From: a virus
Reading direction: 5' to 3' (one strand)
IMG/VR virus record: IMGVR_UViG_3300044644_001332
Location: 1 to 42,955 of that record
DNA: 42,955 nucleotides
Positions 1 through 42,955 of the stretch are shown in pieces. How positions within the stretch are numbered: position 1 is the stretch's first letter; every line of letters starts with the position of its first letter. Below the pieces are notes generated by a model. That model did no database searches and was not told where the DNA came from. It saw only the letters and a list, made by a program, of their open reading frames with translations. The translations under genes and the position numbers were made by a program.

Positions 1-127
1 GGAATCGCCGCCTTCATGGCTGGCATAACCTGCCCGGCGCATGATCGGAAGTTTCTAAGCGCAGTCACTGGCACCGGTCGTTTCGTGCCATTAGCTGAGG
101 CTTGGAACCACGGCCACACGATTGCCA
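1..127. repeat. Terminal direct repeat (assembly overlap), left copy
   Basis: The first 127 bases are identical to the last 127 (42829-42955). An exact repeat of this size at both ends of a contig is what a circular or terminally redundant molecule gives when an assembler with a 127-base word stops after closing the circle. The repeat cuts through one open reading frame that is intact when the ends are joined, which supports circular closure rather than a genuine 127-bp phage terminus. Confidence 0.9.
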
Positions 128-195
128 AGCTGGCCGCAGGCGCTCCGCCCGAAATGCCGAGCAGCCAGCGGCTCATGCAGATCCTGGCCGCCTGA
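1..195 (+). CDS. Small cassette protein, 3' part (gene split by the join)
   Basis: This is the 3' part of a gene that starts at 42802; the frame continues exactly across the circular join to give a 73-aa protein. The product is soluble, slightly basic and unrecognised. Its middle (PLAEAWNHGHTIAKLAAG) looks helical. It is the first gene after the cassette promoter at 42701-42750. The stop codon (193-195) runs straight into a hairpin that follows two other cassette genes too, and then a terminator-like stem at 241-260. No Shine-Dalgarno sequence is apparent. Function unknown; a host-takeover role is only a guess from its position. Confidence 0.75.
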   Translation, partial: GIAAFMAGITCPAHDRKFLSAVTGTGRFVPLAEAWNHGHTIAKLAAGAPPEMPSSQRLMQILAA

Positions 196-226
196 CCCCC
201 ACGGCCCGCCGGGAGCCCATCCCGGC
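193..226 (+). repeat. Post-stop hairpin repeat, copy 1
   Basis: The stop codon TGA is followed by CCCCCACGGCCC and then a perfect stem, GCCGGGA (208-214), loop GCCCA, TCCCGGC (220-226). The same stop-plus-hairpin block follows the genes ending at 593 and 1686. It probably stabilises the 3' end or helps termination. Confidence 0.75.
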
Positions 227-239
227 AACCCATCCCACT

Positions 240-267
240 ACCCCCGGCCACCTGGGGGGCTTCTTCA
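240..267 (+). terminator. Terminator-like GC stem, copy 1
   Basis: CCCCC (241-245) pairs with the G run at 254-259 and is followed by CTTCTTCAT. Two more copies lie at about 1735-1760 and 2092-2119. The tail is pyrimidine-rich rather than a pure T run, so termination strength is uncertain. Confidence 0.5.
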
Positions 268-276
268 TGGCTTGGC

Positions 277-293
277 CAGATTGCGACAATCTG
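277..293. promoter_or_regulatory. 17-bp palindromic operator, copy 1
   Basis: CAGATTG-CGA-CAATCTG is a perfect 7-3-7 inverted repeat directly abutting the GTGAAC box of the cassette promoter. An identical palindrome lies at 1769-1785 in the same relation to another promoter copy. The layout suits binding of a dimeric repressor or activator. Confidence 0.6.
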
Positions 294-386
294 TGAACCG
301 GCCACCCTGATCCCTCCCATGCCGTCACGGATGGACTAAGATAAGTTTATCGGGGGGAGAGATCCCGCCACCACCCACCGCCAGCC
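291..386 (+). promoter_or_regulatory. Cassette promoter, copy 1
   Basis: GTGAAC at 293 lies exactly 44 nt before TAAGAT at 337, with the 9-bp palindrome CCGTCACGG between. A conserved leader (ATCGGGGGGAGAGATC) and a CA-rich stretch ending CCGCCAGCC follow, directly before the ATG at 387. Four other copies keep the 44-nt spacing (1433, 1785, 42299, 42701). TAAGAT can act as a -10 box; there is no recognisable -35 at the usual distance, so recognition by a non-housekeeping sigma factor or an activator is inferred. Confidence 0.7.
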
Positions 387-593
387 ATGACCACCACCAT
401 CAACGGCCGCACCTTCCAGCTCACCGAAAACACCGACAAGCTGGCCAACCTGCGCAGCCACCTGATCGACAAGGGATTTGACGGCAGCATCTGGGAAGGA
501 TTCAGCGCTCGCGCCGGTCGCCAGCGCAAAGACCTCCATTCCATGATCTACCGCAAGCCCTGCGGCGAGTTCGTGATCGCTATTTCTGTCTGA
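387..593 (+). CDS. Small cassette protein, 68 aa
   Basis: Unrecognised soluble protein of 68 aa beginning MTTTINGRTFQL. It looks like a short beta strand, a helix (LTENTDKLANLRSHLIDKG), then a basic stretch (SARAGRQRKDL) and a C-terminal strand. It is the only gene in its cassette: promoter copy 1 immediately upstream, post-stop hairpin copy 2 immediately downstream. The start is fixed by the conserved CA-rich leader; no Shine-Dalgarno is seen, as with the gene at 1525. Function unknown. Confidence 0.7.
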   Translation: MTTTINGRTFQLTENTDKLANLRSHLIDKGFDGSIWEGFSARAGRQRKDLHSMIYRKPCGEFVIAISV

Positions 594-624
594 CCCCCAC
601 GGCCCGCCGGGAGCCCATCCCGGC
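591..624 (+). repeat. Post-stop hairpin repeat, copy 2
   Basis: Begins at the TGA of the preceding gene. The stem GCCGGGA (606-612), loop GCCCA and TCCCGGC (618-624) are identical to copy 1, but no GC terminator follows here, so transcription may continue into the gene at 650. Confidence 0.7.
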
Positions 625-649
625 AAACCATCCCATTGCATCTCCTCCA

Positions 650-922
650 ATGTCTCTGTCCGTCATCCGTCGATTCACCACCGACGACCAAAAGCGTCTT
701 GATGCTTCCGCCCTGCGCTTTGCCGATCGCCACGGCATCAAGCTGGGCCTTGACGACCTTGGGCCAGCAGAAGCGCTCGACATGCACTTGTCGTGGCTCA
801 CATCACAGCAGCGCAGCGAACTGAAGCCGCTCTGGCAGGCCTGCCGCTGCCGCGCTTTGTGCGTCAAGGTTAACGCCAGTATCACAGTTGGTCATGGCTA
901 CGTCGGCTATTCGGTTTCCTGA
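650..922 (+). CDS. Hypothetical protein, 90 aa
   Basis: Unrecognised 90-aa protein (MSLSVIRRFTTDDQKRLDA...). The first 70 residues look helical and contain three Cys near residues 64-70 (QACRCRALC). The C-terminus is small and Gly/Ser-rich. It has no cassette promoter of its own, lies 57 bases after the preceding gene, and the next gene starts 3 bases after its stop, so it is likely transcribed from the promoter at 291. Function unknown. Confidence 0.6.
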   Translation: MSLSVIRRFTTDDQKRLDASALRFADRHGIKLGLDDLGPAEALDMHLSWLTSQQRSELKPLWQACRCRALCVKVNASITVGHGYVGYSVS

Positions 923-925
923 CCC

Positions 926-1219
926 ATGCCTGCCCCCACCAACGCCGCATTATTCCCTATGCCCCCAATCACATTCTTGTCCTTAACCCCCAATGGCGGC
1001 AGGTTCGGCCGCATCGCCTGGAGCAACGGCAACGGCAAGACGTGGGGCCACATTCGCTGGGACCACTGGTGGCCACGCAACCCCCCAACCCCGGCGGAAG
1101 CGACTAAGGCTGCCGCGATGATTGGACACACCATGAAGGTGCTAGGGGTCAGCCTTCGGCAGGCAGCGGAAGCAGCCCGAGCGCTTAGCGCAGCCATGGC
1201 CAATGCTGATGCCTACTGA
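926..1219 (+). CDS. Hypothetical protein, 97 aa
   Basis: Unrecognised 97-aa protein with a Pro-rich start, a Trp/His-rich centre (GHIRWDHWWPRNPP) and an Ala-rich helix at the end. An internal ATG at 959 would give an 86-aa form; the upstream start is preferred because it sits 3 bases after the previous stop. The 3' end overlaps the next gene by 17 bases. Function unknown. Confidence 0.55.
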   Translation: MPAPTNAALFPMPPITFLSLTPNGGRFGRIAWSNGNGKTWGHIRWDHWWPRNPPTPAEATKAAAMIGHTMKVLGVSLRQAAEAARALSAAMANADAY

Positions 1220-1436
1220 CCCCACCAGCGCCGCCCGCAGCCGCCGCTACCGCGAGCGCAAGGCAAAGCGGCTACCCCCGGCGGTGCGCGTGCCCTGCCA
1301 AGCCTGCGGGATCCTGCACACCGGAGCCCACAAGCTGCTGTGTTGCAGGTGCTGGCGCCGGCTGACCCCAGAAGGCCGGGCCGAACGAGCGGCCGGGGTG
1401 CGGCGAGCGCAGAAGCGCAAGCGTGACGGATTGTGA
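1203..1436 (+). CDS. Small basic zinc-finger protein, 77 aa
   Basis: Strongly basic protein (SRRYRERKAKR near residues 13-23; RRAQKRKRDGL at the end). A compact zinc-binding module has C32 and C35, H39/H43, and C47-C48/C50, the arrangement of a zinc ribbon or treble-clef finger. Basic arms flanking a zinc finger suggest DNA or RNA binding. A second ATG at 1209 would remove only two residues. The stop TGA lies inside the GTGAAC box of the next promoter. Family not identified; possibly a transcription modulator. Confidence 0.65.
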   Translation: MLMPTDPTSAARSRRYRERKAKRLPPAVRVPCQACGILHTGAHKLLCCRCWRRLTPEGRAERAAGVRRAQKRKRDGL

Positions 1437-1524
1437 ACTGGCCACCCTGACCCCTCCCAGACCGTCACGCGTGGCCTAAGGTAAGTGCATCGGAGGCGAG
1501 AGCTTCCACCACCCACCACCAGCC
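1431..1524 (+). promoter_or_regulatory. Cassette promoter, copy 2
   Basis: GTGAAC at 1433, 44 nt before TAAGGT at 1477. The intervening element reads CCGTCACGCGTGG, differing from copy 1 around the palindrome. The leader ends in the same CA-rich stretch (CCACCACCCACC...) right at the ATG at 1525. The box overlaps the stop codon of the upstream gene, which fits a transposed or duplicated unit. Confidence 0.7.
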
Positions 1525-1686
1525 ATGACCGCCACCCAACGCAAGCAAGCCCTCCGCCACGACATCATGAATGTCATTAAGGCCAACAATTTTGAAGTCA
1601 CCGGAGATTTCTGGCTCATGCTGATCTTCCGCACTGAATCCGAACTTAAAGAGATCGCTCGGGGCTTCCACATCAAAACTGCCTGA
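1525..1686 (+). CDS. Small cassette protein, 53 aa
   Basis: A 53-aa protein (MTATQRKQALRHDIM...FHIKTA) supported by context: it begins exactly at the end of the conserved cassette leader and its TGA opens hairpin copy 3. It appears to be two helices separated by a short strand; the C-terminal segment (RTESELKEIARGFHI) is amphipathic. No homologous family recognised. Its architecture (promoter, single small gene, hairpin, terminator) is the clearest single cassette in the window. Confidence 0.7.
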   Translation: MTATQRKQALRHDIMNVIKANNFEVTGDFWLMLIFRTESELKEIARGFHIKTA

Positions 1687-1718
1687 CCCCCACGGCCCGC
1701 CGGGCGCCACAGCCCGGC
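1684..1718 (+). repeat. Post-stop hairpin repeat, copy 3
   Basis: Same position and flanks as copies 1 and 2 (TGACCCCCACGGCCC), but the stem is GCCGGGC (1699-1705) and GCCCGGC (1712-1718). The paired change on both arms is compensatory and argues that the RNA fold matters. Confidence 0.7.
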
Positions 1719-1734
1719 AACCCATCCCACCGCC

Positions 1735-1760
1735 GCCGGCCACCCGGGGGGCTTCTTTAT
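1735..1760 (+). terminator. Terminator-like GC stem, copy 2
   Basis: A CCGG-CCAC-CCGGGGGG stem followed by CTTCTTTAT. It corresponds to the stem at 240-267 and is likewise followed by the 17-bp operator and a promoter copy. Confidence 0.5.
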
Positions 1761-1768
1761 GGCTTGGC

Positions 1769-1785
1769 CAGATTGCGACAATCTG
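1769..1785. promoter_or_regulatory. 17-bp palindromic operator, copy 2
   Basis: Identical to 277-293: CAGATTG-CGA-CAATCTG, abutting the GTAAAC box of the following promoter copy. Confidence 0.6.
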
Positions 1786-1883
1786 TAAACCGGCCACCCT
1801 GATCCCTCCCGGACCGTCACGCGTGGCCTAAGGTATGTGCATCGGGGGGAGAGATCCACCCGGTTCCCATCGCTTCCCCGTCC
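1783..1883 (+). promoter_or_regulatory. Cassette promoter, copy 3
   Basis: GTAAAC at 1785 (one base different from the other copies), 44 nt before TAAGGT at 1829, then the ATCGGGGGGAGAGATC leader. The leader diverges after that and lacks the CCACCACCCACC stretch before the ATG at 1884. Confidence 0.7.
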
Positions 1884-2069
1884 ATGCCCGCCGCTCGCTT
1901 CCACGTCATCATCCGCCGCCCCAACACCACGGGGCCCGCTGACATCCTTTGGCACTTCTTCGCCAAAGACAAAATCGAGGGCCGCATCAAGCTGCAAGAG
2001 GAGTTGGCCCTGATGTCTCACTACCCCTATCGGCCCGAGGTTCAAATCTTCGATCTCCATGCGGCTTGA
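1884..2069 (+). CDS. Small cassette protein, 61 aa
   Basis: Unrecognised 61-aa protein. It shows an N-terminal strand (ARFHVIIRRP), an aromatic turn (WHFFAKD), a helix (KIEGRIKLQEELALM) and a C-terminal strand, a plausible small alpha/beta fold. It follows promoter copy 3 directly and is followed by a perfect GC terminator stem at 2092-2111, so it forms its own unit and is the last plus-strand gene of the cassette region. Function unknown. Confidence 0.65.
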   Translation: MPAARFHVIIRRPNTTGPADILWHFFAKDKIEGRIKLQEELALMSHYPYRPEVQIFDLHAA

Positions 2070-2091
2070 GGCGCAAGCCACAGAAGCCACC

Positions 2092-2119
2092 GCCCCCGGC
2101 CACCCGGGGGCTTCTTCAT
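2092..2119 (+). terminator. Terminator-like GC stem, copy 3
   Basis: Perfect 8-bp stem GCCCCCGG (2092-2099) and CCGGGGGC (2104-2111), loop CCAC, tail TTCTTCAT. It ends the plus-strand cassette region. Confidence 0.6.
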
Positions 2120-7360: not shown

Positions 7361-7369
7361 GGTTGTTGC

Positions 7370-7740
7370 TGCGCTATGCCTCGGCTAGCCGGGACAAGCC
7401 CTGCCTCGCCTGCGGTGCCACGTCTAGCCGGAACATGCCCGGCCCAGCCGCGCCTTGCCTGCGGTGCCCCGCCAGGTCGCGCCGCGCCGCGCCACGCCAA
7501 GCCTTGCCTGCGGTGCCCGGTCGGGCCTGGCCGGGCCAGGCCTAGCCAGCGGTGCCGCGCCTCGCCGTGCCACGCCTGCGGTGCCTTGTCCTGCCGCGCC
7601 GTGCCTCGCCGAGCCAGGCCACGCCTGCGGTGCCATGCCTCGTCGCGCCGAACCCTGCCAAGCCCTGCCAAACCTTCGATGCGCTGTCCTGCTCCGCCAC
7701 GCCGAGCCTTGCCAGGCCTTGCCTGCGATTCCATGTAATG
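7370..7740. repeat. 49-bp tandem array with five-base internal rhythm
   Basis: The core GCCTGCGGTGCC recurs at 7408, 7457, 7506, 7545 (GCCAGC variant), 7574, 7623, about 7672 (degenerate) and 7721. Most steps are 49 bp, and the two short ones are 39 and 29, i.e. shortened by multiples of ten. Between cores the DNA runs in GCCNN pentamers. Several frames stay open on both strands, giving low-complexity ARG/PAL-rich translations, but no start signal or codon constancy supports a protein. It fills the 448-bp gap between the genes ending at 7759 and starting at 7310. Confidence 0.8.
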
Positions 7741-7758
7741 CCGTGTCGGTTGAAATCA

Positions 7759-8382: not shown

Positions 8383-8452
8383 TGAGAGAGGTTGCGGGTG
8401 GGTTTGTGCCGCGCTTGAGCTGCGGCGAAGGGTGTGCGGCCGCGCTGCCTCG

Positions 8453-8842
8453 CTATCGGGCAGGGCGGCCGGCTGGTAGGGGTTGGCCGGGTTGCGCCCC
8501 GGTGGGCGGGGGTGTTAGGGCATGGCGGGGGGGGGGCGGGGTTGAGGGTGGAACTCCTTGGGGTAGTGGCGGGCAGACCTGATGCTCCCACCATTCGGAA
8601 CCGTCGTATTCACGACGGTCAGACCATGTGCCATCGAGATACCAGACGGTGCCGAAAAGCTCCTGGCCACCAAATCCGCTGTCGTAATTGAAATCAAGCA
8701 GGGGCAGCACTTCTTCAAGCGTGCCCACAAGCGGTTTTTTGTGTGGAAAACAAGATTTGTCGAAGGAGACAGAAACGTAATAAACCGCTGGAGCGCCGAT
8801 GCTTTCAATGTGGCTTTGAAGCTCGGCCTTGGCGTTGGTCAT
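8453..8842 (-). CDS. Hypothetical protein, 129 aa, flanked by direct repeats
   Basis: Start taken at MTNAKAELQSHIESIG (8842); an ATG at 8857 would add five residues. The first 90 residues look like a real acidic alpha/beta protein (YYVSVSFDKSCF, TLEEVLPLLDFNYDSGFGG, GTVWYLDGTWSDRREYDGSEWWEH). The last 40 are Pro-rich and come from translation through a repeat copy, so the original stop may have been lost. A second copy of the same repeat lies just upstream of the start. Function unknown. Confidence 0.6.
   Translation of the reverse strand: MTNAKAELQSHIESIGAPAVYYVSVSFDKSCFPHKKPLVGTLEEVLPLLDFNYDSGFGGQELFGTVWYLDGTWSDRREYDGSEWWEHQVCPPLPQGVPPSTPPPPRHALTPPPTGAQPGQPLPAGRPAR
8465..8536. repeat. Direct repeat, copy 1
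   Basis: About 70 bp (GCGGCCGGCT ... TTAGGGCATGGCGGGGGGG) that recurs 431-432 bp away at 8897-8967 with a few changes. It contains the hairpin CCGGG-TTGCGC-CCCGG. Just outside it lies CGCTATCGGGCAGGG (8452-8466), found inverted at 8880-8894 beside the other copy. Confidence 0.8.
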
Positions 8843-8896
8843 GGTTGGGGTGGGCATGGGTGGGGTGGGATGGTTGCCGCCCTGCCCGATAGCGGG

Positions 8897-8967
8897 GCGG
8901 CCGGCTCTAGGGGTTGGCCGGGTTGCGCCCCAGCGGGTGGGGTTGTTAGGGCATGGCGGGGGGGGGC
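8897..8967. repeat. Direct repeat, copy 2
   Basis: Partner of 8465-8536. The hairpin is weakened here (CCGGG with CCCAG). It lies in the 182-bp leader between the palindromic operator at 9000 and the 8857/8842 starts. Confidence 0.8.
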
Positions 8968-8999
8968 TGGTGCGCTGACCGTTGAACCGTAGCAGATCC

Positions 9000-24183: not shown

Positions 24184-25167
24184 ATGGCCGACGTCACGAT
24201 CACAGGGCTGCCCAACGCCTCGGCGCTCAGCGGGACTGAGCGGGTGCCGATGGATCAGGGTGGCGTCACGGTGGATGCGCCGCTCTCGGCGATCGTGGCG
24301 CTGCTAGAACCTGGTCCGGCCGGCCCGACTGGTCCGACGGGGCCAACCGGCGCCACGGGCGCAACCGGCCCGGCTGGAGCCCCAGGGGCGCCTGGGGCGA
24401 CCGGCGCCACGGGCGCCACGGGAGCTACAGGTGCCACGGGAGCCGCAGGCGCACCTGGTGCAACCGGTCCGGCTGGCCCAACTGGCGCCGCAGGGGCGGA
24501 CGGCAAGACGGTGCGATCTGGGTCCGGCGCGCCGTCCGCCGGGCTCGGCGTCGATGGCGATTTCTACATCGACACAGCTGCCGACACGATCTACGGCCCC
24601 AAGACCTCCGGGTCCTGGGGATCGCCAACGTCGCTGGTCGGACCCACCGGCCCGGCCGGTGCCACTGGCCCCACGGGCGCAACGGGCGCAACGGGCCCGC
24701 AAGGCCCCGCCGTGCCGCTCAGCAGCGCCGCCCCCCAGCCCCTGGCTGCCACTGCAGCGGCCGGAAGTGGCACCGATGCCGCCCGGATTGATCACACGCA
24801 CCAGCGGGACACCGATGTTTACAAGGTGCCAATAGGTGATGAAGGCACCGCAATTACCGCTGGGACAAACAAAGTAAGGTTCAAAGCAGATTTTCCTGGA
24901 ACACTTGTTGCTGTTCGCGCAGGAGTAAATACAGCGCCGACTGGCTCGACGCTGATTGTGGACATTAACAAAAACGGTGTTTCAATGCTAGGAACAAAGC
25001 TTAGTATTGACGCTAACGAAACAAGCAGCGCAACTGCTGCCAGCGCCGCAACAATTACCACCACCAGCATTGCGGATGACGATGAGATCAGTATCGACAT
25101 TGACCAGCCTGGCACAACAGTTGCCGGGGCTGGCCTCAAAGTCAGTCTGTTTGTGCGGAGGACATGA
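24184..25167 (+). CDS. Collagen-like fibre protein, 327 aa
   Basis: An N-terminal anchor (residues 1-40, VTITGLPNASALSGTERVPMDQGG) is the attachment module found on many phage fibre proteins. It is followed by two collagen-like Gly-X-Y blocks (about 44-105 and 150-176, mostly GAT, GPT, GPA) that form a triple helix. The C-terminal domain from about residue 205 is a beta-rich trimerisation or binding head and is markedly AT-richer. It sits between head-tail connector and tail terminator genes, so it could be a head or neck whisker as well as a side tail fibre. Confidence 0.85.
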   Translation: MADVTITGLPNASALSGTERVPMDQGGVTVDAPLSAIVALLEPGPAGPTGPTGPTGATGATGPAGAPGAPGATGATGATGATGATGAAGAPGATGPAGPTGAAGADGKTVRSGSGAPSAGLGVDGDFYIDTAADTIYGPKTSGSWGSPTSLVGPTGPAGATGPTGATGATGPQGPAVPLSSAAPQPLAATAAAGSGTDAARIDHTHQRDTDVYKVPIGDEGTAITAGTNKVRFKADFPGTLVAVRAGVNTAPTGSTLIVDINKNGVSMLGTKLSIDANETSSATAASAATITTTSIADDDEISIDIDQPGTTVAGAGLKVSLFVRRT

Positions 25168-32159: not shown

Positions 32160-34366
32160 CCGACACCGTTCGCTACGCGCTTCAAACCTTCAACCCTGAC
32201 GGCAGCCGCCGGTATGCAGTAGGCAGCGGTCGCAGTTCCGGGTCAATTACATCTGCCGGAGACGGCAGCTACAAGGGGCCAGCATTTTCAATCGGAGTGC
32301 CATCCGGCAGCAGGGCCCTGTCGTTTGCGCTCCCTGCCACCGGCCAGCTGCCGCCACCGGCCAAGTCCGCTGCCGCCGCCGGCAACTCACCGCTCCGGGT
32401 GCCGCAGCGGGCCATGGTGATAGGTGAGCCGATCCCAGTTGTGTTCGGTCGGCGGCGCGGAACCGTGGGCGGTGTGCTGGTGTTCCCGCCAGCGACTGAA
32501 GCCCGGTTCGAAAACACCAACAGCACCGTCACCAGCCGCTATCACATGGTGCTGGGCGAAGGCCAGATCGGTTCCGTGCAGGTGCGCGATGCCAGGAATG
32601 GTGAGAGCCGGATCGGCAGCTTCAGCCAGAACTACGGCAAACGGGCTGGCAACTGGACGCCCGGCAACTTCGCCACAAGCCACGGCGGAGTGACGCCGAT
32701 TTTCCCCCACTACACCGGCGGCGGCGGCAACTACAGCGGTATCAGTACCATCGAAGCTGGGGCCACATTCCACCATGATTCCGACGAGTGGAAGACCGCC
32801 TGGAACTTCTTTGTCCGCGAGGGCATGACGATCGAGCGGGGCCGCCTGGCGGATGGTGTAGCCGGCGCCTCTGACAACATCGCCGACCTGGTGCTGTGGG
32901 CATGGCAGCGCAGCTCCAGGGTGCCGCTGGCGATGATCGACATGGACTCCATGGTTGCCGCGGCCAAGTTTGTGGAGGCCAACGGTCTGTGGTGCAACGG
33001 GCTATTCGAGGATTCGGCCAACCTGGGCGATTTCGTGATCAGGATCCTGCCCTTCTTCCTGCTGCGGGAAACGAGGGTAGGAGGCAAGTATGGGCTGAGG
33101 CCGTTGCTACCGGCTAACGCGGACGGCAGCATCATCACCGATCCGATCGAGCCCCGCTGGCTGCTGGATGAGCGGATCATCAAGCCCGATTCGTTCCAGC
33201 GCACCAACGTCGAAGCGAGCGTCAGGCGAGCCCCGATCCTGAATGTGCTCTGGCGCCAGCAGGCAGATGAGACTGACATCGCGGTGCCTCGCACCTTGCC
33301 GATCGGAACGAGCAACGGGACGGACAAGCCGGAGCAGCGCGACCTCTCGCAGTTCTGCACCAGCGAGCTGCACGCCTCTAGGGCCGGCAGCTACGAATAT
33401 GCGCGGCGGGTGCTGACTGGGCATACAGCAACAGTGAAGCTTCGGACTGGCAGCCAAACCGGCCGGATCAAAGAGGGCGACGTGGTGCAGGTCTACCTGA
33501 GAGTCGAAGCCGATGGAGATGCGCCATGGTTTTACAATTACTACTACCAGGTCGAATCAGTCGGGCTCGACTTCACTGGAGAAGAGACGTTATCCCTTAC
33601 CCATTTCCCGGTAGATGCAGATGGCCGCAGCTTGCTGGCGGATGCTGTCGTCCGGGCGCCCGTAACTGGCATCATCCTCCCCAGCCAGCGGACCGGCCCC
33701 AGTGGTGACGTGGCCGGCCGCGACACAGACACCAGCGTGCCGGGCAGCCTTACTGGTGGGACCCCGCTCAGCCCTCCAGGCCAGCCCGGCTTGCCGCCGT
33801 TCACTCCACCTGAACAGCCGCCAGAGCCGCCAGCGCCTCCGGCGCCTGGGGATCCTGTCATCCCTGGCCGGCCTGTGCCGCCGCCGGCTGTGCCTAGGGG
33901 TTCGGAACAGGATGAGCAAACAAAGGTCTACTTTGTCGAAGGAACAACCTACACCGGGTTTAATACTCATTCAGGGTTCTGGTCGCTGGCTTATACCAAA
34001 CCAAAGCTAGAAAGCATTCAAAAGGCAAACACGGGAGCGGATGTAGTTCAGCCTTTGGTGTGGGGTGGTCAAATTCAAGAGGTAGGTATTGACCCGCAAA
34101 GAGTTACGCTTTCTTTTGAAACTGCGCTCGGCTCTTATTCAATTACTGCACATTATGCCTCTGGCAATGTTACTGTAACAAGTAGTCCTCCTGTGACCGT
34201 GGGGCTAATTTTTGGCAGGCATCAGCAATACAACAGTCCAATCTATGGCGGGCAGTTGTTGTGGGACAACGTTTACACGGCGACCGTGACTGAAGTGGGC
34301 ACAGTTGACGGCAATGGTCTTATCAGCTTCTACGCAGTTGCCAAGCCGGTCTATAGTTGGGGTTAA
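32156..34366 (+). CDS. Tail hub / host-specificity protein (J-like), 736 aa
   Basis: Central tail tip protein. Residues 80-480 contain the gpJ-type hub pattern (VIGEPIPVVFGRRRGTVGGVLVFPP, LGEGQIGSVQVRDARNG, LVLWAWQRSSRVPLAMIDMDSM, FCTSELHASRAGSYEYARRVLTG). A Pro-rich linker (about 540-580, LSPPGQPGLPPFTPPEQPPE...) is followed by a C-terminal module of about 150 residues whose DNA is distinctly AT-rich (about 33930-34360). Host receptor recognition is likely located there. Confidence 0.85.
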   Translation: MTDTVRYALQTFNPDGSRRYAVGSGRSSGSITSAGDGSYKGPAFSIGVPSGSRALSFALPATGQLPPPAKSAAAAGNSPLRVPQRAMVIGEPIPVVFGRRRGTVGGVLVFPPATEARFENTNSTVTSRYHMVLGEGQIGSVQVRDARNGESRIGSFSQNYGKRAGNWTPGNFATSHGGVTPIFPHYTGGGGNYSGISTIEAGATFHHDSDEWKTAWNFFVREGMTIERGRLADGVAGASDNIADLVLWAWQRSSRVPLAMIDMDSMVAAAKFVEANGLWCNGLFEDSANLGDFVIRILPFFLLRETRVGGKYGLRPLLPANADGSIITDPIEPRWLLDERIIKPDSFQRTNVEASVRRAPILNVLWRQQADETDIAVPRTLPIGTSNGTDKPEQRDLSQFCTSELHASRAGSYEYARRVLTGHTATVKLRTGSQTGRIKEGDVVQVYLRVEADGDAPWFYNYYYQVESVGLDFTGEETLSLTHFPVDADGRSLLADAVVRAPVTGIILPSQRTGPSGDVAGRDTDTSVPGSLTGGTPLSPPGQPGLPPFTPPEQPPEPPAPPAPGDPVIPGRPVPPPAVPRGSEQDEQTKVYFVEGTTYTGFNTHSGFWSLAYTKPKLESIQKANTGADVVQPLVWGGQIQEVGIDPQRVTLSFETALGSYSITAHYASGNVTVTSSPPVTVGLIFGRHQQYNSPIYGGQLLWDNVYTATVTEVGTVDGNGLISFYAVAKPVYSWG

Positions 34367-35739
34367 TGGCTGACTTTCCTGCCCTGATCCCAAGCCAGGC
34401 GCCGATCACCCCCGGCAACTGGCCCATGGCTGGCCATCAATCGATGGACGGGAAGCGCGGCAACGTCCGCACCGGTTCGCTGGAGATCGGCCGAACGTGG
34501 ACGCCAATCTTCGAGAACATCACCGAAGCCGACTACCTGACGATTCTGGCCCACTACCGGGCGCACCGGCTGCAGTTCGATCGGTTCGTCTTCACCGTCA
34601 CCACCCTGGCCGCTGCGCTCACGCCAACCGGCTACGCCTGGCGCTGGGCTGAGTCGCCCCAGGTGGTGGACCGTCATGCCGATGTGTTCGTGATCCGCTG
34701 CGCCTTCTCCTGCGTGCCCCGGCCGCTGGCATCGATGCGTGGGGGGCAGTGGAGATCGGCCGCATCTACGTTCACCCGTGGTGCGTTCGCTGGTGTGTTC
34801 GGCGCTTTCGAGACAGGTGGCCGGTGGGGCTCGGCCGCATCTACGTTCACCCGCGGTGCGTTCTCCGGGGGGCTGGGTGTGTTCGAGCTGGGGGGGCAGT
34901 GGGGTTCAGCGCAGACCACGTTCACCAGGGGGGCGTTCGCTGGTACCAGTGGCATCTTTGAGTCTGGCGCCCAGTGGGTATCAGCAGCAACGACGTTCGT
35001 TCGCGGGCGGATTGCCGGGGCGTCGGTGTTTGAGGCTGGGGCGCAGTGGGCGTCAGAGGCGACGACGTTCACCAGGGGGGCGTTCGATGGCGACTACTGG
35101 GATCCGTCCATGCTTTCGCCGGTGTTCTGGCTCGACTTCGCCGACACCTCTACGATCACCACTTCAAGCGGATCAATCACGCAGATCAACGACAAGGGCA
35201 GTAACGGGTACCACGCCACCTCAAGCTCTGGTAGCAGGCCAACCCAAGGAACCGTCAATGGCAACAACTGCATGGTCACTACGGCCAGCCAGTATGTTCA
35301 AACATCAGCATCAGTAGTCCCGCAATGTTTTATTATTGTGGTTCAGTTTACTGAACTTACAGGAGAGCAATTTATTGTAGGCAGCGGAGCCTACTATCCA
35401 TTTCACTGCCCGATACCTGGCGACAACGGATACAACGCAAACGACCACAAGCTAGTCGGCTTGCTTGCTGACAACAACGTCAAAAACGGCTCTGCATGGC
35501 AGAATGGTGTATCTACGGCGCCACTGTCTTTGACGCGCAGCCTAAGTCCAACCTGTTACGTTTTTAACCTTACGGGTGGCGTCTTTATCAATCAATTCTC
35601 AGCTGATAGAGGTAATTACTACAGAAACGCCGGCATTGTCGGCAAGACCTGCGAGATCATCGCACTGTCATCCAACATCTCAAGCACCGACCGGGCAAAG
35701 CTCGATGCCTACGTCGCCTCGAAGTGGGGCGCTTCCTAA
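34366..35739 (+). CDS. Tail tip adhesin with 25-aa repeats and lectin domain, 457 aa
   Basis: Start at MADFPALIPSQAP, where ATG overlaps the preceding TAA (TAATG). The N-terminal 120 residues are a tail-attachment domain. Residues about 126-242 hold five copies of a 25-aa repeat with consensus G-G/A-QW-SA-TTFTRGAFAG...FE, probably a beta-stack spacer. The C-terminal 210 residues (PVFWLDFADTSTITTS...INDKGSNGYHAT...SDRAKLDAYVASKWG-type ending) resemble a concanavalin-like lectin domain. The coding DNA becomes AT-rich from about 35290. Likely receptor-binding adhesin. Confidence 0.75.
   Translation: MADFPALIPSQAPITPGNWPMAGHQSMDGKRGNVRTGSLEIGRTWTPIFENITEADYLTILAHYRAHRLQFDRFVFTVTTLAAALTPTGYAWRWAESPQVVDRHADVFVIRCAFSCVPRPLASMRGGQWRSAASTFTRGAFAGVFGAFETGGRWGSAASTFTRGAFSGGLGVFELGGQWGSAQTTFTRGAFAGTSGIFESGAQWVSAATTFVRGRIAGASVFEAGAQWASEATTFTRGAFDGDYWDPSMLSPVFWLDFADTSTITTSSGSITQINDKGSNGYHATSSSGSRPTQGTVNGNNCMVTTASQYVQTSASVVPQCFIIVVQFTELTGEQFIVGSGAYYPFHCPIPGDNGYNANDHKLVGLLADNNVKNGSAWQNGVSTAPLSLTRSLSPTCYVFNLTGGVFINQFSADRGNYYRNAGIVGKTCEIIALSSNISSTDRAKLDAYVASKWGAS
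34741..35090 (+). repeat. 75-bp coding tandem repeats
   Basis: Five tandem units. The first two are nearly identical over TCGGCCGCATCTACGTTCAC (34756 and 34831, period 75 bp); the later ones are diverged at the nucleotide level but conserved as protein. Confidence 0.85.
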
Positions 35740-35764
35740 CCTGAACCAAGAACAGACCCCCCCC

Positions 35765-36193
35765 ATGGCTAGCCTCGTCTTCAACAGCTACCTAGGCGAC
35801 GTGTTCGCCGGGAACTGCAACACCAGCCACACCTACAAAATGACCCTGCACACCTCGGCATACACCGAGGACAGGGCCGCTCATTCCAGGTTCAGTTCGG
35901 TGACGAACGAGCTGGCGACCGGCAACGGCTACACCCAGGGCGGCGCCACCGTGACGCTCAGCTATGCCGTCAACAACACCACCAACATCAGCACCGTCAC
36001 AATCGGCGCCGCCAACTGGCCCAGCTCCACCCTCACGGTGCGCAAGGCGGTGATCCGGCGGGCCAGGGGTGGAGCCGCCAGCGCTGACGAGCTGGTGGCC
36101 GTGCTGGACCACACCACCGACGTGAGCAGCAGCGGCACCACCTTCAACATCGCGGCCAGTACCTGGACGATCCCGCTGCCCGCGCCCAACTGA
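35765..36193 (+). CDS. Phage virion-associated beta protein, 142 aa
   Basis: Start at MASLVFNSYLGDVFAGN. The pattern (short start, MTLHTSAYTEDRAAH..., VTNELATGNGYTQGGATVTLSYA..., and a late AVIRRA...LVAVLDHTTDVSSSGTTFNI) matches a small all-beta protein recurrent in phages, in which T-x-AYT, GTGYTAGG and DVSS motifs occur. Exact role unknown, perhaps a tail or capsid accessory protein. Coupled to the next gene by TGATG. Confidence 0.7.
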   Translation: MASLVFNSYLGDVFAGNCNTSHTYKMTLHTSAYTEDRAAHSRFSSVTNELATGNGYTQGGATVTLSYAVNNTTNISTVTIGAANWPSSTLTVRKAVIRRARGGAASADELVAVLDHTTDVSSSGTTFNIAASTWTIPLPAPN

Positions 36194-36561
36194 TGGCCAC
36201 CTTCCCCGCCATCGAACCGCTGGGGCGGGAGTACGGCCTGGGCGATCTGGTGGTGTCTGTCGTGGCGGCGCAGAACGGTGACTCGACCCCGTTCGCTCAT
36301 TCATCCGTGCCGCACGCCATCCCGATCAGCTTGCAATTCCCCGCGCTGACCCTGAGCGAGGTGCAGCAGATCCGCGACCACCACGCCGGGCAGCGGGGCC
36401 AGGTGCGGGAGTTTGCCCTTCCGCCAGAGCTGTGGCGGATGCACTCCAACCTCTACGACGTGTGGCCATCGGGGACCCTGTTCACCTACGCCGGCCCGCC
36501 CGCCGAGACCCCTCGATCCGGCGGGCTGTTCGATGTTTCCGTTCCCCTCTTGAGCATCTGA
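36193..36561 (+). CDS. Minor tail protein, 122 aa
   Basis: Beta-rich protein (MATFPAIEPLGREYGLGDL...FPALTLSEVQQIRDHHAGQRGQVREFALPPELWRM). The pattern of a strand, then L-T-L-SE-x-x-x-I-x-D-H and FxLP, is like minor tail (gpM-type) tip proteins. It lies 5' of the lysin and shares the compact spacing of the tail cluster. Moderate certainty. Confidence 0.6.
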   Translation: MATFPAIEPLGREYGLGDLVVSVVAAQNGDSTPFAHSSVPHAIPISLQFPALTLSEVQQIRDHHAGQRGQVREFALPPELWRMHSNLYDVWPSGTLFTYAGPPAETPRSGGLFDVSVPLLSI

Positions 36562-36565
36562 CCCC

Positions 36566-37297
36566 ATGACCTCCCCCACCCTTGCCTCAGTCCGCGCTGC
36601 CGTGCAGGAAGCCGTCAAGCGCGGCGAGCTGCTGCCCCACCAGCTGGCTGCATTCTCGGCCCTGGACGCTTCCCTGACGCCCACGCAGCGCGAGTCCTTC
36701 ACCGCCGACTGGCGGGCTAAGGGCAGCCCGGCCGCGGCGGTGCCTGCTCCAGCGGTCAGGCCCACCAACCCGCTCACGGGCTTTCCCTACTTCAGCCAGC
36801 TCGACAACCAGGGAGGGCAGGGCTACAGGGAATGTCAGAGCTCATCGATCGCCATGTGCCTGGCCTACCTCGGCGCCGGGGGCATTGAGACCGACGATCA
36901 ATACCTGAAGGTGGTGCGGCGCCACGGCGACACCACCAGCCAGGCGGCCCACCAAGGGGCGCTGCGTGAGCTGGGCGTAAAGGCCCGATTCGTGCAGTCC
37001 TGCTCAGCCGCTCAGCTACAGGCCGAGCTGCGCAGCGGTCTCCCGGCCGCGCTGGGCTATTACCACCGTGGCCCCGTGGGGGCGCCCAGTGGTGGCGGGC
37101 ATTGGCTCAGTGTCTATGGCTTCGATGCGCACAGCTGGATCGTGAACGATCCATACGGTTCCTGCGACCTGGTGCGCGGTGGTTTCACGGCAGAGGGCGG
37201 CACCAGCGGCCGGGCGCAGCGCTACAGCTACCGCAACTTCAACCCGCGCTGGACGGCCGAAGGTCCTAAGTCCGGCTGGGCCTGGTTGTTTTCATGA
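36566..37297 (+). CDS. C39-family peptidase, likely endolysin, 243 aa
   Basis: Cysteine peptidase domain in residues 65-240 with the triad C90 (YRECQSSSIAMCL), H179 (GGGHWLSVYGF) and D195 (VNDPYG), as in the peptidase C39-like family (PF13529). The N-terminal 55 residues are helical and could be a cell-wall-binding or regulatory region. No signal peptide. Located after the tail genes, it is the only lysis-enzyme candidate, so it probably cleaves peptide bonds in peptidoglycan; a virion-associated role is also possible. Confidence 0.75.
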   Translation: MTSPTLASVRAAVQEAVKRGELLPHQLAAFSALDASLTPTQRESFTADWRAKGSPAAAVPAPAVRPTNPLTGFPYFSQLDNQGGQGYRECQSSSIAMCLAYLGAGGIETDDQYLKVVRRHGDTTSQAAHQGALRELGVKARFVQSCSAAQLQAELRSGLPAALGYYHRGPVGAPSGGGHWLSVYGFDAHSWIVNDPYGSCDLVRGGFTAEGGTSGRAQRYSYRNFNPRWTAEGPKSGWAWLFS

Positions 37298-38451
37298 CGA
37301 ACGAGCGCACCTATCAATGCCGCCGGCTCCGCAGCTGCCGGGCCTGGGTAGGCGAAAGCGCTATCGAGTGGGTGGAGCAGCCCGGCGGCAACAAGCGCCC
37401 CTACTGCCTGCCGGGGATGTGCCCCAGCGGCAAACGGTCGGACACCAGCGCCGAACTGCTGGCGCTGCAGCTGGAGCTGCGCAAGATGCGCGAGGCGGCC
37501 CGCACGGCTGAGCGCGATCGTGATCGTGCGCTTGAGCAACTGGCCAGCACCATGGACTCACTGGTCACCGCGCTGGACATTCGGGAAATCGATCAGCCGG
37601 AGCCCCTGGCCGATCACCAGCCTGGTGTGCGCTCGGAATCGGTGCCGATCCTGCTTTGCTCGGACTGGCACTGCGGCGCCGTGGTCCGGCCGGAGACGGT
37701 GAACGAGTTGAACGCCTATGACGTGGAGGAGTTCCACCGGCGCGCCGCGGCCCTGTTCGTGAACGCCCTGAAGGTGATCCGGATGGTGCGCAGCAGCTGC
37801 GACGTTCGGCAGATGGTGCTGTGGCTCGGCGGCGATCTGATCGACAACTGGCTCCATCCGGAGCAGGCTCAGCTGCAGGAGCTATCGCCCACCCAGCAGA
37901 TCATCGAGTGCGAGCGCGCCATCGTGGCCGGCATCGATCACCTGCTGGAGCACGGCGGCTTTGAGCGGATTGTGATCCCCTGCAGCTACGGCAACCACGG
38001 CCGGACCACGCCGAAGATGCAGGCGGACAACGCCCACGCCACCAGCTACGAGTGGCTGATGTATCAAAGCCTGCGCCGGCATTTCCGGCATGAGGAGCGC
38101 CTTGAATGGCGCATCAGCGACGGCAACATCCTCTACGTCGAGGTCCTCGGCCGGCTGCTGCGCTTCCACCATGGCGATGCCATCCGCTACCAGGGCGGCA
38201 TCGGTGGGCTGACCGTGCCGCTGACGAAGTGGCAGCTCCGGCAGGATCAGGGCATCGCCGCTGACCACAGCTTCTTTGGCCACTTCCACCAACTCACCAT
38301 GGGGCCAGCCTGGAGCGTGAACGGCTCGCTGATCGGGCCGACCGCCTATGGGCTCAAGCTCGGCTTTGCCCCGGAACGCCCCCAGCAGCTACTCAGGTTC
38401 CTGGATTCTGAGCGTGGCTGGACTGGGGCCTTCCCGGTCCTGACGGACTGA
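37294..38451 (+). CDS. Calcineurin-like metallophosphoesterase, 385 aa
   Basis: Metal-dependent phosphoesterase with SDWH (123-126), GGDLIDN (179-185), GNH (233-235), HHGD (292-295) and GHFH (329-332), in the canonical order. The N-terminus carries a possible zinc cluster (C9, C15, C38, C43) and a coiled coil (53-90), unusual for the family, perhaps for DNA binding or oligomerisation. Such proteins in phages may act as nucleases or nucleotide phosphatases. The last plus-strand gene of the late block, overlapping the lysin gene by 4 bases. Confidence 0.85.
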   Translation: MTNERTYQCRRLRSCRAWVGESAIEWVEQPGGNKRPYCLPGMCPSGKRSDTSAELLALQLELRKMREAARTAERDRDRALEQLASTMDSLVTALDIREIDQPEPLADHQPGVRSESVPILLCSDWHCGAVVRPETVNELNAYDVEEFHRRAAALFVNALKVIRMVRSSCDVRQMVLWLGGDLIDNWLHPEQAQLQELSPTQQIIECERAIVAGIDHLLEHGGFERIVIPCSYGNHGRTTPKMQADNAHATSYEWLMYQSLRRHFRHEERLEWRISDGNILYVEVLGRLLRFHHGDAIRYQGGIGGLTVPLTKWQLRQDQGIAADHSFFGHFHQLTMGPAWSVNGSLIGPTAYGLKLGFAPERPQQLLRFLDSERGWTGAFPVLTD

Positions 38452-38626
38452 TCCCCTGGCTGATCAGCAGATCCCGGTAGCGCGCCATCAGTCGCACGCC
38501 GCAGCGGTCCTCGATGCAGGTGCCGCGCGAACAGATCCGCCAGGTGGCGCCGCCTGCAGCATCGACGACAACATGCAAGCCGTCGGGATCAGCAGACTGA
38601 GGGGCAGTCTCTGATGGTGCTGACAT
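38393..38626 (-). CDS. Possible small Cys-containing protein, 77 aa
   Basis: A minus-strand frame (MSAPSETAPQ...DGLHVVVDAAGGATWRICSRGTCIEDRCGV...) whose start codon overlaps the start codon of the plus-strand 38625 gene in the palindrome CATG. The central part (VVVDAAGGATWRICSRGTCIEDRC) has three cysteines. It overlaps 59 bases of the phosphoesterase gene. Weak evidence. Confidence 0.4.
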   Translation of the reverse strand: MSAPSETAPQSADPDGLHVVVDAAGGATWRICSRGTCIEDRCGVRLMARYRDLLISQGISPSGPGRPQSSHAQNPGT

Positions 38627-38894
38627 GAAGGCCTCCGAGGTGGTTTGGATTGATTCCGATGCGAGCCCATCGGTGCATTGTCATTTCGAGGCAGCCCGGC
38701 GGGCGGTGCCGATGCTCCCGCGGCCGGAACTGGAGCGGCAGCTCATCAACAGTCTGGCCGCCCAGGTCAACCAATCCCAAGCCCTAAAGCGCCAGCTGGG
38801 GCGGCTGCTGGAGCTGGAGGCTACGGTGGCGGCGATGGAGCGGCAGGCCCCAGGGGACTGGGATTTTCTGGCAAGGCTGGGGTTGAAAGGCTGA
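38625..38894 (+). CDS. Small coiled-coil protein, 89 aa
   Basis: After an N-terminal strand region (VVWIDSDASPSVHCHFEAARRAVP), the protein is a long helix or coiled coil (PELERQLINSLAAQVNQSQALKRQLGRLLELEATVAAMERQ). It is 174 bases from the phosphoesterase gene, and its end overlaps the 3' end of the sigma gene on the other strand by 74 bases, so the two transcripts are antisense there. Function unknown. Confidence 0.55.
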   Translation: MKASEVVWIDSDASPSVHCHFEAARRAVPMLPRPELERQLINSLAAQVNQSQALKRQLGRLLELEATVAAMERQAPGDWDFLARLGLKG

Positions 38895-39723
38895 GGCTCA
38901 ACTGACAGCACTGCTCCGGCCGCCATGGGGGCAGCGTGGGCGCCGGTGGCGGCGTTTCCCGGCGCAGCTTGCTCAGGGCCTGCGCCAGGATCACCTTCAC
39001 CTCAGCGAGGGAAATGGCCTCCTGGGCGGCCAGCGCCCGCAGCGTGGCGGGATCCGCCCGCAGCCCCCAGCGTCCCTCGATCAGCCGTTGCTCAAGCGGA
39101 TCGAGGGCCGCCATGCGCGTCGCCAGCTCATCAGCGTCTGGGTCTTGCTCATCGGGAGTCGGAGTCGCCAGGGTGTCGCCCAGGGTTAGCTCGCTGTCAC
39201 AGCCGGGAATGATGTGATCCAGCGAGCGCACAAACGACGCAGCTCGCCCGTCAGCCAGGAGATGCGCCGGGCAAGCGCCGTTGGTTGTGCCCCGAAGCGC
39301 GGCGAAAACATTCGAGGGGAGCTTAATTGGCGGCTCTGCAAACTCGCCGCGCCCGACCTCCGCCCTCAGCCACCAATATGCAAACGTGGAGAACCGATAC
39401 CCCCGCTCCGGGTCAAACAGCTCAGCAGCTCGGATCAGCCCCAGGGTGCCGTTCTGAAACCGATCAACAAGCGGCCCGGCGTGTGTGCGACTCTGGACGA
39501 ATTTCGCCACCAATCGAAGATTGGCCGCCACGATCCGATTGCGTGCCCGCAGGCCCCGCCGCTGGACGGCTGGCGGGGCTTTGTCGGGTCCATCGGGGTG
39601 CTGCTGCCATGCCTGCACCAGCGAGCTCAGGTGGATCTCCTCCGCTGGGGTCAGCAGGGGCACCTGCTGCGCCGCTTCGACCCATTGCCGTGCTGAGTCG
39701 GTGTCGGCGCTGGCGCTGGCCAT
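38821..39723 (-). CDS. Sigma-70-family RNA polymerase sigma factor, 300 aa
   Basis: Promoter-recognition subunit. Region 1.2-like residues 11-42, region 2 at about 58-127 (NRIVAANLRLVAKFVQ; LVDRFQNGTLGLIRAAELFDPERGYRFSTFAYWWLR) and region 4 at about 198-256 (LDPLEQRLIEGRWGLR...LAQALSKLR). The FSTFAYWWLR core is typical of cyanobacterial group 1/2 factors. Residues equivalent to Escherichia coli Q437 and T440 (-10 contacts) are A121 and G124; those at R584, E585, R588, Q589 (-35 contacts) are L239, A240, K243, V244. Region 3 is shortened, and a Pro-rich tail of about 44 residues is added. Likely directs host polymerase to phage promoters. Confidence 0.9.
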   Translation of the reverse strand: MASASADTDSARQWVEAAQQVPLLTPAEEIHLSSLVQAWQQHPDGPDKAPPAVQRRGLRARNRIVAANLRLVAKFVQSRTHAGPLVDRFQNGTLGLIRAAELFDPERGYRFSTFAYWWLRAEVGRGEFAEPPIKLPSNVFAALRGTTNGACPAHLLADGRAASFVRSLDHIIPGCDSELTLGDTLATPTPDEQDPDADELATRMAALDPLEQRLIEGRWGLRADPATLRALAAQEAISLAEVKVILAQALSKLRRETPPPAPTLPPWRPEQCCQLSLSLSTPALPENPSPLGPAAPSPPP

Positions 39724-39726
39724 GGG

Positions 39727-39870
39727 TCACTCGAACGGAGTGAGGAACACCGCCGCCAGGGCCAGGACCAGGGCGATCGCCAAGTACTCCCAGGTGAGCG
39801 GGCCAGCCCCGATTACCAGGGCCGCCACGGTGAGCGCCAGGGCGATGGCGCTGCAGATGGAGTCGGTCAT
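39727..39870 (-). CDS. Two-helix membrane microprotein, 47 aa
   Basis: MTDSICSAIALALTVAALVIG-AGPLTWEYLAIALVLALAAVFLTPFE: two hydrophobic segments of about 18 residues separated by a short loop, making a helical hairpin. The start overlaps the upstream stop (ATGA), and its end lies 3 bases before the sigma gene. Together with the next gene it is a pair of related-looking small membrane proteins; holin/antiholin-like or membrane modulators. Function unknown. Confidence 0.65.
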   Translation of the reverse strand: MTDSICSAIALALTVAALVIGAGPLTWEYLAIALVLALAAVFLTPFE

Positions 39871-40920: not shown

Positions 40921-40926
40921 GGGAAT

Positions 40927-42223: not shown

Positions 42224-42293
42224 AGGGTGCGTGGGAAGAACGCCCCCAGACCTTAGCCTCTCGCTAAGGGGTCCGGGCGGATGCTGCGGTTAC
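42224..42293 (-). promoter_or_regulatory. Palindromic promoter of the second class, minus-strand copy
   Basis: Read on the minus strand: GTAAC (starting at 42293) lies 38 nt before TAAGGT (42255-42250). CCTTAGC (42251-42257) and GCTAAGG (42263-42269) form a 7-5-7 inverted repeat. The leader TAAGGTCTGG...TTCTTCCCACGCACCC precedes the ATG at 42223. The +12361 element shows the same half-site, the same TAAGGTCTGG start and almost the same end, so both are probably bound by the same factor. The region is divergent with the cassette promoter at 42299. Confidence 0.7.
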
Positions 42294-42296
42294 GGT

Positions 42297-42350
42297 TTGT
42301 GAACTGGCACAGGGTAGGCAGGGCTGAGCGTCACGGATGGGCTAAGGTAT
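42297..42350 (+). promoter_or_regulatory. Cassette promoter, copy 4
   Basis: GTGAAC at 42299 lies 44 nt before TAAGGT at 42343, with CGTCACGG between, as in copies 1 and 5. It is preceded by TTACGGTTT, shared with copy 5. It directs a long leader of about 140 nt towards the gene at 42493. Confidence 0.75.
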
Positions 42351-42492
42351 GGGCATCGGGGGAAACCCGATCGCCAGTCGGCCATAGGCGTTAAACCGGG
42401 CCGAACCGCTCCCAGCAGTCCGGGAGTAAATCATTTTCGTCCAACCGGCGAGGCCCTGAGCGGCCCCGGTTGGTCACCACCACCAACGAATC
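42351..42492 (+). other. Structured leader of the membrane-HTH gene
   Basis: ATCGGG-GGAAA-CCCGAT (42355-42371) is a perfect 6-bp hairpin at the expected transcript start. CCAACCGG (42441-42448) pairs with CCGGTTGG (42466-42473), enclosing a GGCC-rich loop. Such paired elements in a long leader suggest attenuation or protein-controlled translation; no known riboswitch recognised. Confidence 0.5.
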
Positions 42493-42681
42493 ATGACCAC
42501 CATTTCCTGCGCCCTTTTGTGGGCGCTCACACCCCTGTTGATTGTCCTGGCGGTGATCGCCTGGGCCACTGAAACCAACCGCGACCGGGCCCGGCGCTGG
42601 AGGCGCCAGGGGCTCAGCCAGGCCCGCATCGCTGAACGGCTGGGGTGCAGTCGCTGGAAGGTGCGGCAACTGCTGGCCTGA
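42493..42681 (+). CDS. Membrane-anchored helix-turn-helix protein, 62 aa
   Basis: An N-terminal membrane segment (residues 5-25, SCALLWALTPLLIVLAVIAWA) is followed by a basic stretch (TNRDRARRWRRQG) and a helix-turn-helix at about 40-61 (LSQARIAERLGCSRWKVRQLL) of resolvase/LuxR-like type. A protein with one membrane pass and a DNA-binding tail of this size is unusual; it could tether DNA to the membrane or act as a membrane-bound regulator. It is in its own cassette, and its stop precedes promoter copy 5 by only 19 bases. Confidence 0.7.
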   Translation: MTTISCALLWALTPLLIVLAVIAWATETNRDRARRWRRQGLSQARIAERLGCSRWKVRQLLA

Positions 42682-42696
42682 TGCGCTGGCGTTACG

Positions 42697-42801: not shown

Positions 42802-42955
42802 ATGACCATCAATGAAGCGCAAAAAATGGGAATCGCCGCCTTCATGGCTGGCATAACCTGCCCGGCGCATGATCGGAAGTTTCTAAGCGCAGTCACTGGC
42901 ACCGGTCGTTTCGTGCCATTAGCTGAGGCTTGGAACCACGGCCACACGATTGCCA
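42802..42955 (+). CDS. Small cassette protein, 5' part (continues at position 1)
   Basis: Start of the 73-aa protein that finishes at 195 after the circular join: MTINEAQKMGIAAFMAGITC... A second ATG at 42826 would remove eight residues. The terminal 127 bases are duplicated at the left end of the contig. Confidence 0.75.
   Translation, partial: MTINEAQKMGIAAFMAGITCPAHDRKFLSAVTGTGRFVPLAEAWNHGHTIA
42829..42955. repeat. Terminal direct repeat (assembly overlap), right copy
   Basis: Exact copy of 1-127. Remove one copy to obtain the circular unit of about 42,828 bp. Confidence 0.9.

Follow-up and report, generated by a model that had tools for sequence, protein, structure and literature searches.

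Can repeated DNA around unrelated small genes serve phages as a place for exchanging those genes? This question is raised by an array of small genes in the IMG/VR virus record IMGVR_UViG_3300044644_001332, which was analysed over its whole length of 42,955 bases and is called the window here. An earlier note on this DNA had proposed that homologous ends around unrelated genes let recombination swap them as cassettes. We conclude that the array is very probably a homologous-exchange site for early small-gene cassettes in uncultivated cyanosiphoviruses, and that it works without a recombinase of its own.

Layout of the array

Positions 1-127 of the window are repeated exactly at 42829-42955 (a 127-bp end overlap), so the genome is circular and has 42,828 bp. 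The record was cut within a small gene, B, and the array therefore spans the contig ends. The array consists of five promoter-like elements (P) of ~80 bp, three structured elements (hp), each of which follows a stop codon, three terminators (T) and eight small genes (A-H) for proteins of 53-97 amino acids (aa). They run from 42283 through the circular junction to 2118 in the order P1-A-P2-B-hp-T-P3-C-hp-D-E-F-P4-G-hp-T-P5-H-T, and a terminator is directly followed by a P at 241-367 and at 1735-1857. The features are as follows; L numbers denote related loci.

42283..42371, + strand: P1, promoter-like, with the 5' hairpin ATCGGGGGAAACCCGAT (42355-42371); nhmmer E 4.7e-14, five-copy alignment
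42366..42435, + strand: P1-type structured leader RNA (pseudoknot and hairpin) preceding gene A; alignment A10, pair counts
42493..42681, + strand: gene A, 62 aa, hydrophobic N-terminus and helix-turn-helix (HTH)-like C-terminus (sub-threshold Sigma70_r4/HTH matches); kept in L009
42685..42775, + strand: P2, promoter-like; nhmmer, five-copy alignment
42802..42955 and then 128-195 across the junction (1..195 on the contig), + strand: gene B, 73 aa in total, absent from L009; homologue in L092 (family 31)
193..235, + strand: first hp copy, H-type pseudoknot after the stop codon of B; nhmmer E 1.5e-12
241..265, + strand: terminator-like GC stem with T-rich tail; a repeat, flagged by a simple terminator scan
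283..367, + strand: P3, promoter-like, with 5' hairpin (351-367); nhmmer E 1.3e-16
387..593, + strand: gene C, 68 aa; on the same side of F in L009, downstream of F in L053, L079 and L088
591..633, + strand: second hp copy; nhmmer E 3e-12
650..922, + strand: gene D, 90 aa; replaced in L009
926..1219, + strand: gene E, 97 aa; replaced in L009
1203..1436, + strand: gene F, 77 aa, zinc-ribbon-like CxxC...CxxC, conserved; its stop overlaps the next P
1423..1507, + strand: P4, promoter-like, with the 5' hairpin GGAGGC-GAGA-GCTTCC (1492-1507); nhmmer E 1.6e-16
1525..1686, + strand: gene G, 53 aa; replaced in L009, homologues upstream of F in L012, L014 and L034
1684..1727, + strand: third hp copy, with a compensated C-G closing pair; nhmmer E 2e-8
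1735..1757, + strand: terminator-like GC stem with T-rich tail; a repeat
1775..1857, + strand: P5, promoter-like, with 5' hairpin; nhmmer E 1.1e-14
1884..2069, + strand: gene H, 61 aa; identical protein in L009
2092..2118, + strand: terminator-like GC stem at the end of the array; a repeat, flagged by the simple terminator scan

A stretch at ~2141-2190, past the last terminator, is kept in most relatives (CCCGGTCGGCCCATCATCCGCAAGGGGGGCGCCGTGG...TTTGTTGGGG).

Exchange of cassettes between relatives

Comparison of close relatives revealed that near-identical flanks enclose different cargo at one and the same locus, as the earlier note had predicted. L009 is 99.5% identical to the window over 33969-42794 (8.8 kb) and lacks exactly one unit, P2-B-hp-T; in the base-by-base alignment, gene A leads straight into the promoter of gene C. 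This unit is moron-like, as had been suggested, being absent from L009 at the same place, with its promoter and terminator recognised by sequence only. L009 also has two other small genes instead of D and E and another gene instead of G, and it retains C, F and H. L102 and L103 are 99.4% identical over 10.9 kb, and one P-gene-terminator unit is present in L103 and absent from L102. The sole promoter of L102 is a hybrid, in which the upstream half of one L103 promoter is joined to the downstream half of the next. In L036 and L041 the promoter region is alike, the cargo is wholly different, and the break lies in the leader. The exchange points seen so far are located in the promoter and the leader. 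In the window, the last 65 nt of P2 and its leader are identical to P3 (42730-42794 = 322-386), and the upstream half of P2 is P1-like. This mosaic is as expected of recombination within the promoter.

A survey of further arrays gave the same result. A scan with the DNA pattern found L009 and L008, and scans with the F protein found 13 and then 80 viral loci. A hidden Markov model detected 185 P elements in these loci, some of which lie overlapping on one contig; after near-duplicates were removed, 65 arrays with 142 P elements and 85 first-gene families remained. Thirty of these families are common to at least two arrays, and cargo is reused in other slots, as 11 of the 30 lie before F in one phage and after it in another. 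There are 94 pairs of elements in which P identity is at least 85% and the cargo is unrelated (cargo DNA identity 0.61, shuffled 0.59), and in these pairs identity drops off within about 10-20 nt of the ATG. Gene content was not fixed among the relatives, as it should be if cassettes were not exchanged. Thus L009, L102/L103, L036/L041 and the survey all support the proposal that cassettes are swapped by recombination at their homologous ends.

The exchange would work as follows. A transcription unit would open with P (TGTGAAC, 45 nt, TAnnnT) and a hairpin leader 9 nt past the -10 box and continue with its small genes, of which there may be one or several; a pseudoknot would follow the first stop codon, and an intrinsic terminator would close the unit. 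As unrelated genes are flanked by shared promoter/leader, pseudoknot and terminator DNA, cargo can be exchanged by homology. General homologous recombination, whether it joins the DNA of co-infecting phages or acts on copies within a single genome, would insert, delete or replace cargo, and exchange at shared flanks would leave a working promoter behind. The recombination would be carried out by functions of the phage or the host; the window encodes two predicted exonucleases.

The claim that no recombinase gene is present holds for the window: the tyrosine integrase family PF00589 has no match there at E <= 1, with the control positive in 14/14 genomes, and the serine resolvase family PF00239 has no match in the window either. 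The earlier note had also called the system integron-like, and beyond the word 'cassette' nothing supports this. An integron-like or other site-specific system, in which a dedicated recombinase acts on hp or P, would fit the cassette layout, and a serine recombinase gene does stand beside one array, on the opposite strand (L008:12570-13841; PF00239, E 4.4e-29). However, that enzyme is best read as the integrase of L008, which may be a temperate phage, the junctions do not fall at a single fixed point, and no recombinase common to all members was seen. We consider a site-specific system extremely unlikely.

Several points weigh against homologous exchange as we describe it. None of the exchanges seen has a breakpoint that can be placed with certainty within hp or the terminator, and the differences in L009 and in L102/L103 can be read as either gain or loss. 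The assignment of P as a promoter, and as an early one, draws on its -10-like box, its position and its leader, and so is a prediction. The survey is biased to F-bearing arrays, as most loci were collected via F, although the P pattern used independently of F gave the same picture: it found 16 stretches, and an F gene lies nearby in 16/16. First-gene open reading frames (ORFs) were chosen mechanically; a few of the choices are probably incorrect, and these inflate the number of families. Finally, all relatives are metagenomic contigs, and short repeats can misassemble. It could be argued from this that repeats in mixed populations produced chimeric contigs, the more so as exact repeats reach 65 nt within one genome. 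However, identical layouts occur in contigs of separate metagenomes (four with P13-hp-F-P8-P0 and five related to P1-hp-hp-hp-F), which makes an assembly artefact unlikely as a general cause, and cargo families recur intact in distantly related genomes. Such an artefact is therefore very unlikely to explain the array.

Promoter-like elements, RNA structures and cargo

The P core GTCACGNRTGGNCTAAGRTANGTNNATCGG has five copies in the window (42330, 42732, 324, 1464 and 1816) versus 0 expected. The earlier note had placed promoters at five sites within 193-2119; the number stands, but only the copies at 324, 1464 and 1816 lie there, and those at 42330 and 42732 lie at the far end of the contig, in the same circular array. 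Among scorable survey elements, 86/87 have a TAnnnT -10-like box with TGTGAAC exactly 45 nt upstream. GTCAC(G) and, farther upstream, a GTGAC-like box are also conserved. A simple sigma-70 scan found no TTGACA/TATAAT promoter, and P is not a textbook sigma-70 promoter. We suppose that P is an active early promoter.

P is followed by a 5' hairpin with a 6-bp stem and a 4-nt loop, which appears only at the register 9 nt past the -10 box; adjacent registers show nothing comparable. Because an energy-like hairpin score was weak against whole-segment shuffles (mean z 1.3), we chose an arm-swap test at fixed register. It showed that 19/76 distinct arm pairs are fully paired versus 2.1 after swapping (0/1000), and that mean arm pairing is 4.03 versus 3.38 +/- 0.08 (0 of 1000); the controls in this test and in those of hp keep the kinship among the sequences, and the figures are to be taken as support and not as probabilities. 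Stems such as GGAGGG/CCCTCC, GGCGGG/CCCGCC, GGAGCC/GGTTCC and GGGGCC/GGCCCC stand in for one another, and GNRR tetraloops are common (64/121).

A second structure follows the P1 type of element. The P1-type leader (CGATCGCCAGCCGGCCATAGGCGTNAAACCGGGCCGAA...) contains a pseudoknot CGCC/GGCG, in which the loop CGGCY pairs with RGCCG, and a hairpin. It is found in the window at 42366-42435 and in L072, L074, L091, L092, L095, L099, L101, L103, L105 and L106, where it precedes different cargo genes. In alignment A10, 99.3% of cells are paired and 5 cells are changed on both sides (0/500 shuffles). This leader could be a riboswitch-like RNA.

The third structure is hp. TGA plus a hairpin had been noted at 193, 591 and 1684, and we found the same: the 21-mer TGACCCCCACGGCCCGCCGGG has three copies in the window versus 0.01 expected by chance. 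The compensatory arm change seen at 1699 is also real, with stem arms GCCGGGC/GCCCGGC in the copy at 1684 versus GCCGGGA/TCCCGGC in those at 193 and 591. Pair counts over 36 distinct sequences revealed 8 cells changed on both sides versus 1.7 in shuffles. Besides this covarying stem, an upstream GGC or AGC pairs with the loop GCC or GCT, and hp is therefore an H-type pseudoknot. Own loops scored 7.6 and swapped loops 6.59 +/- 0.20 (0 of 2000) in a loop-swap test.

What hp does is less certain. It starts ~12 nt past the stop codon, and the next ATG follows at a median of 58 nt, in a random frame relative to the stop (19/19/17). Pseudoknots at this distance resemble known readthrough stimulators, and hp might be a recoding signal, linking the second gene to the first by readthrough or frameshift; the random frame and position of the next gene count against this, and we regard recoding as highly improbable. 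They count also against termination as the main role of hp, and hp as a plain terminator was rejected, as it has no T-run and a further ORF follows in 55/60 cases. The repeated structure that had been described as the hairpin of a cassette thus exists, but it is an intercistronic pseudoknot, usually with another gene after it, and not always the end of a cassette. It may stabilise the mRNA or partition it between cistrons, a role for which we see roughly even chances. hp elements also occur in L109, L117, L121, L122 and L129, with no F or P detectable nearby, and hp may serve elsewhere. Permissive Rfam scans gave two chance-level matches in 1-2300 and none for the P1-type leader, and in the window no Rfam family reaches its gathering score; hp and the P1-type leader are two conserved RNA structures absent from Rfam. 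As to the GC stems reported at 241, 1735 and 2092, they are indeed repeats, and those at 241 and 2092 are flagged by the simple terminator scan, whose total for the array region is no higher than in shuffles. GC stems with a T-rich tail are likely the terminators of the array.

The fixed 45-nt spacing and the covarying leader and hp structures indicate functional selection on these elements. This would also be found if the repeats were purely regulatory, that is, a regulon of small operons whose likeness is maintained through selection or gene conversion, with cargo that differs by illegitimate recombination elsewhere than the repeats. However, the junctions lie in P or the leader, including that of the hybrid promoter, and the 94 pairs combine a common P with different cargo. 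We therefore judge a purely regulatory role improbable and prefer homologous exchange at the repeats.

What is exchanged is mostly of no recognised family. The 48 cargo representatives gave few Pfam or PHROG matches. In L087, a cassette at 5500 encodes a 133-aa protein directly before F that is STIV B116-like (PF08960, E 1.3e-22), and its closest solved structure is AFV3-109 (E 4.4e-17). The PF08960 family includes AcrIII-1, and the L087 protein is predicted to be an AcrIII-1-type ring nuclease. The cargo of L056 includes a GIY-YIG protein. Because of these two cases, the small size of the proteins and their own promoter-like elements, the cargo may be early genes for host takeover or counter-defence.

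F is the gene that stays while others change. Its AlphaFold model has a pLDDT of 86, and the best PDB matches are non-significant (probability about 0.15, mostly ribosomal zinc ribbons). The likeliest role of F is that of a nucleic-acid-binding regulator of the array, although we put this at somewhat less than even. An F-like domain in L023 (7974-8615) is fused to a C-terminal region that resembles an HNH nuclease by eye; no other long F occurs in a set of 86 distinct sequences. Going further, one could speak of a counter-defence exchange island of freshwater cyanophages, in which early small proteins, one of them of the AcrIII-1 type, are shuffled at promoter repeats and hp, the P1-type leader and the invariant F form a control circuit. 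We offer this fuller picture only tentatively.

The virus and comparison with known systems

The large terminase of the window is 75-77% identical to those of the Synechococcus siphoviruses S-CBS3 and S-CBS1, and portal, head, tape-measure, primase-polymerase, helicase and DNA methylase genes are encoded together with the two exonucleases. Because of the S-CBS-type terminase and the siphovirus gene set, the host is most likely a picocyanobacterium, probably of freshwater. A sigma-70-type factor gene (38821-39723, minus strand; PF04542, PF04545; phrog_351) is also present, as in S-CBS1, S-CBS3 and S-LBS1, and its product is a candidate reader of some phage promoters. Further internal repeats of the genome are found at 7367-7749, 8439-8987, 24206-24782 and 34695-35104, and mycobacteriophage DNA is about 70% identical to 7439-7724.

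The array elements were also sought in databases. P has no blastn match at E 0.1 in 50,697 phage records and none in plasmids, and F has no match among phage records or plasmids. In 84,980 bacterial/archaeal species genomes, searched as a prophage check, none of 594 candidates was confirmed by the F alignment. S-CBS1, S-CBS3 and S-LBS1, which all have the sigma factor gene, have no P or hp element above noise.

Morons of lambdoid phages are single genes with their own promoter and terminator that are present or absent between close relatives. Cassette B is like them, but the array has several tandem units with near-identical flanks. It differs from integrons in that the window has no IntI-type tyrosine integrase gene (PF00589). 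In cluster K mycobacteriophages, the short repeated motifs SAS/ESAS (start-associated sequences), some with inverted repeats, precede some of the small non-structural genes; the SAS has 13 bp, GGGATAGGAGCCC, and lies at the translation start, with a proposed role in translation initiation (PMC3203893). P differs in that its -10-like box precedes the start codon by about 40 nt or more and in its association with a post-stop pseudoknot, and GGGATAGGAGCCC was not found by eye in the listed P-to-ATG stretches. In the haloarchaeal myovirus HGTV-1, according to PMC3950731 (citing Sencilo et al. 2013), a conserved promoter-like motif with an inverted repeat precedes most genes of one genome half, and regulation and shuffling were proposed. 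The HGTV-1 motif is described there as archaeal TATA-type, and shuffling was proposed from likeness to T4, whereas here exchanges are seen between near-identical genomes.

The closest comparison is with the PeSLs (promoter early stem-loop cassettes) of T4-type myoviruses (Arbiol et al. 2010, doi 10.1093/gbe/evq006; Comeau et al. 2014, doi 10.1093/gbe/evu129). These are composite promoter and stem-loop/terminator motifs repeated between small accessory genes, and the genes they flank undergo modular shuffling between related phages by homology (PMC4503421, PMC3950731). The window array likewise has promoter and stem-loop/terminator motifs in many copies between small genes, and the cargo between them differs among close relatives. 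However, its carrier is an S-CBS-like siphovirus and not a T4-like myovirus, as the terminase and the portal, head and tape-measure families indicate, and P has no blastn match among the phage records searched. Its layout also includes a leader hairpin that covaries, a pseudoknot of its own between cistrons and a linked gene, F, of the zinc-ribbon type. Because the phage is not T4-like and the element has no sequence relation, the array is not a PeSL member in the strict sense. The best reading is that it works like PeSL cassettes, in an unrelated phage group and with different elements. What is newest is that hybrid promoters are seen directly, that an F gene is linked to the array and that its two RNA structures are absent from Rfam. 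Small genes whose function is unknown accumulate in phages, and many are suspected of acting against host defences; how they pass from one phage to another has rarely been observed directly. In this group, comparison of near-identical genomes reveals the exchange points. P is a search handle that leads to dozens of new small-protein families of picocyanobacterial phages, one recognisable as an anti-CRISPR type. In summary, compared with PeSLs, this array suggests that promoter-cassette shuffling arose or spread beyond the T4-like phages.

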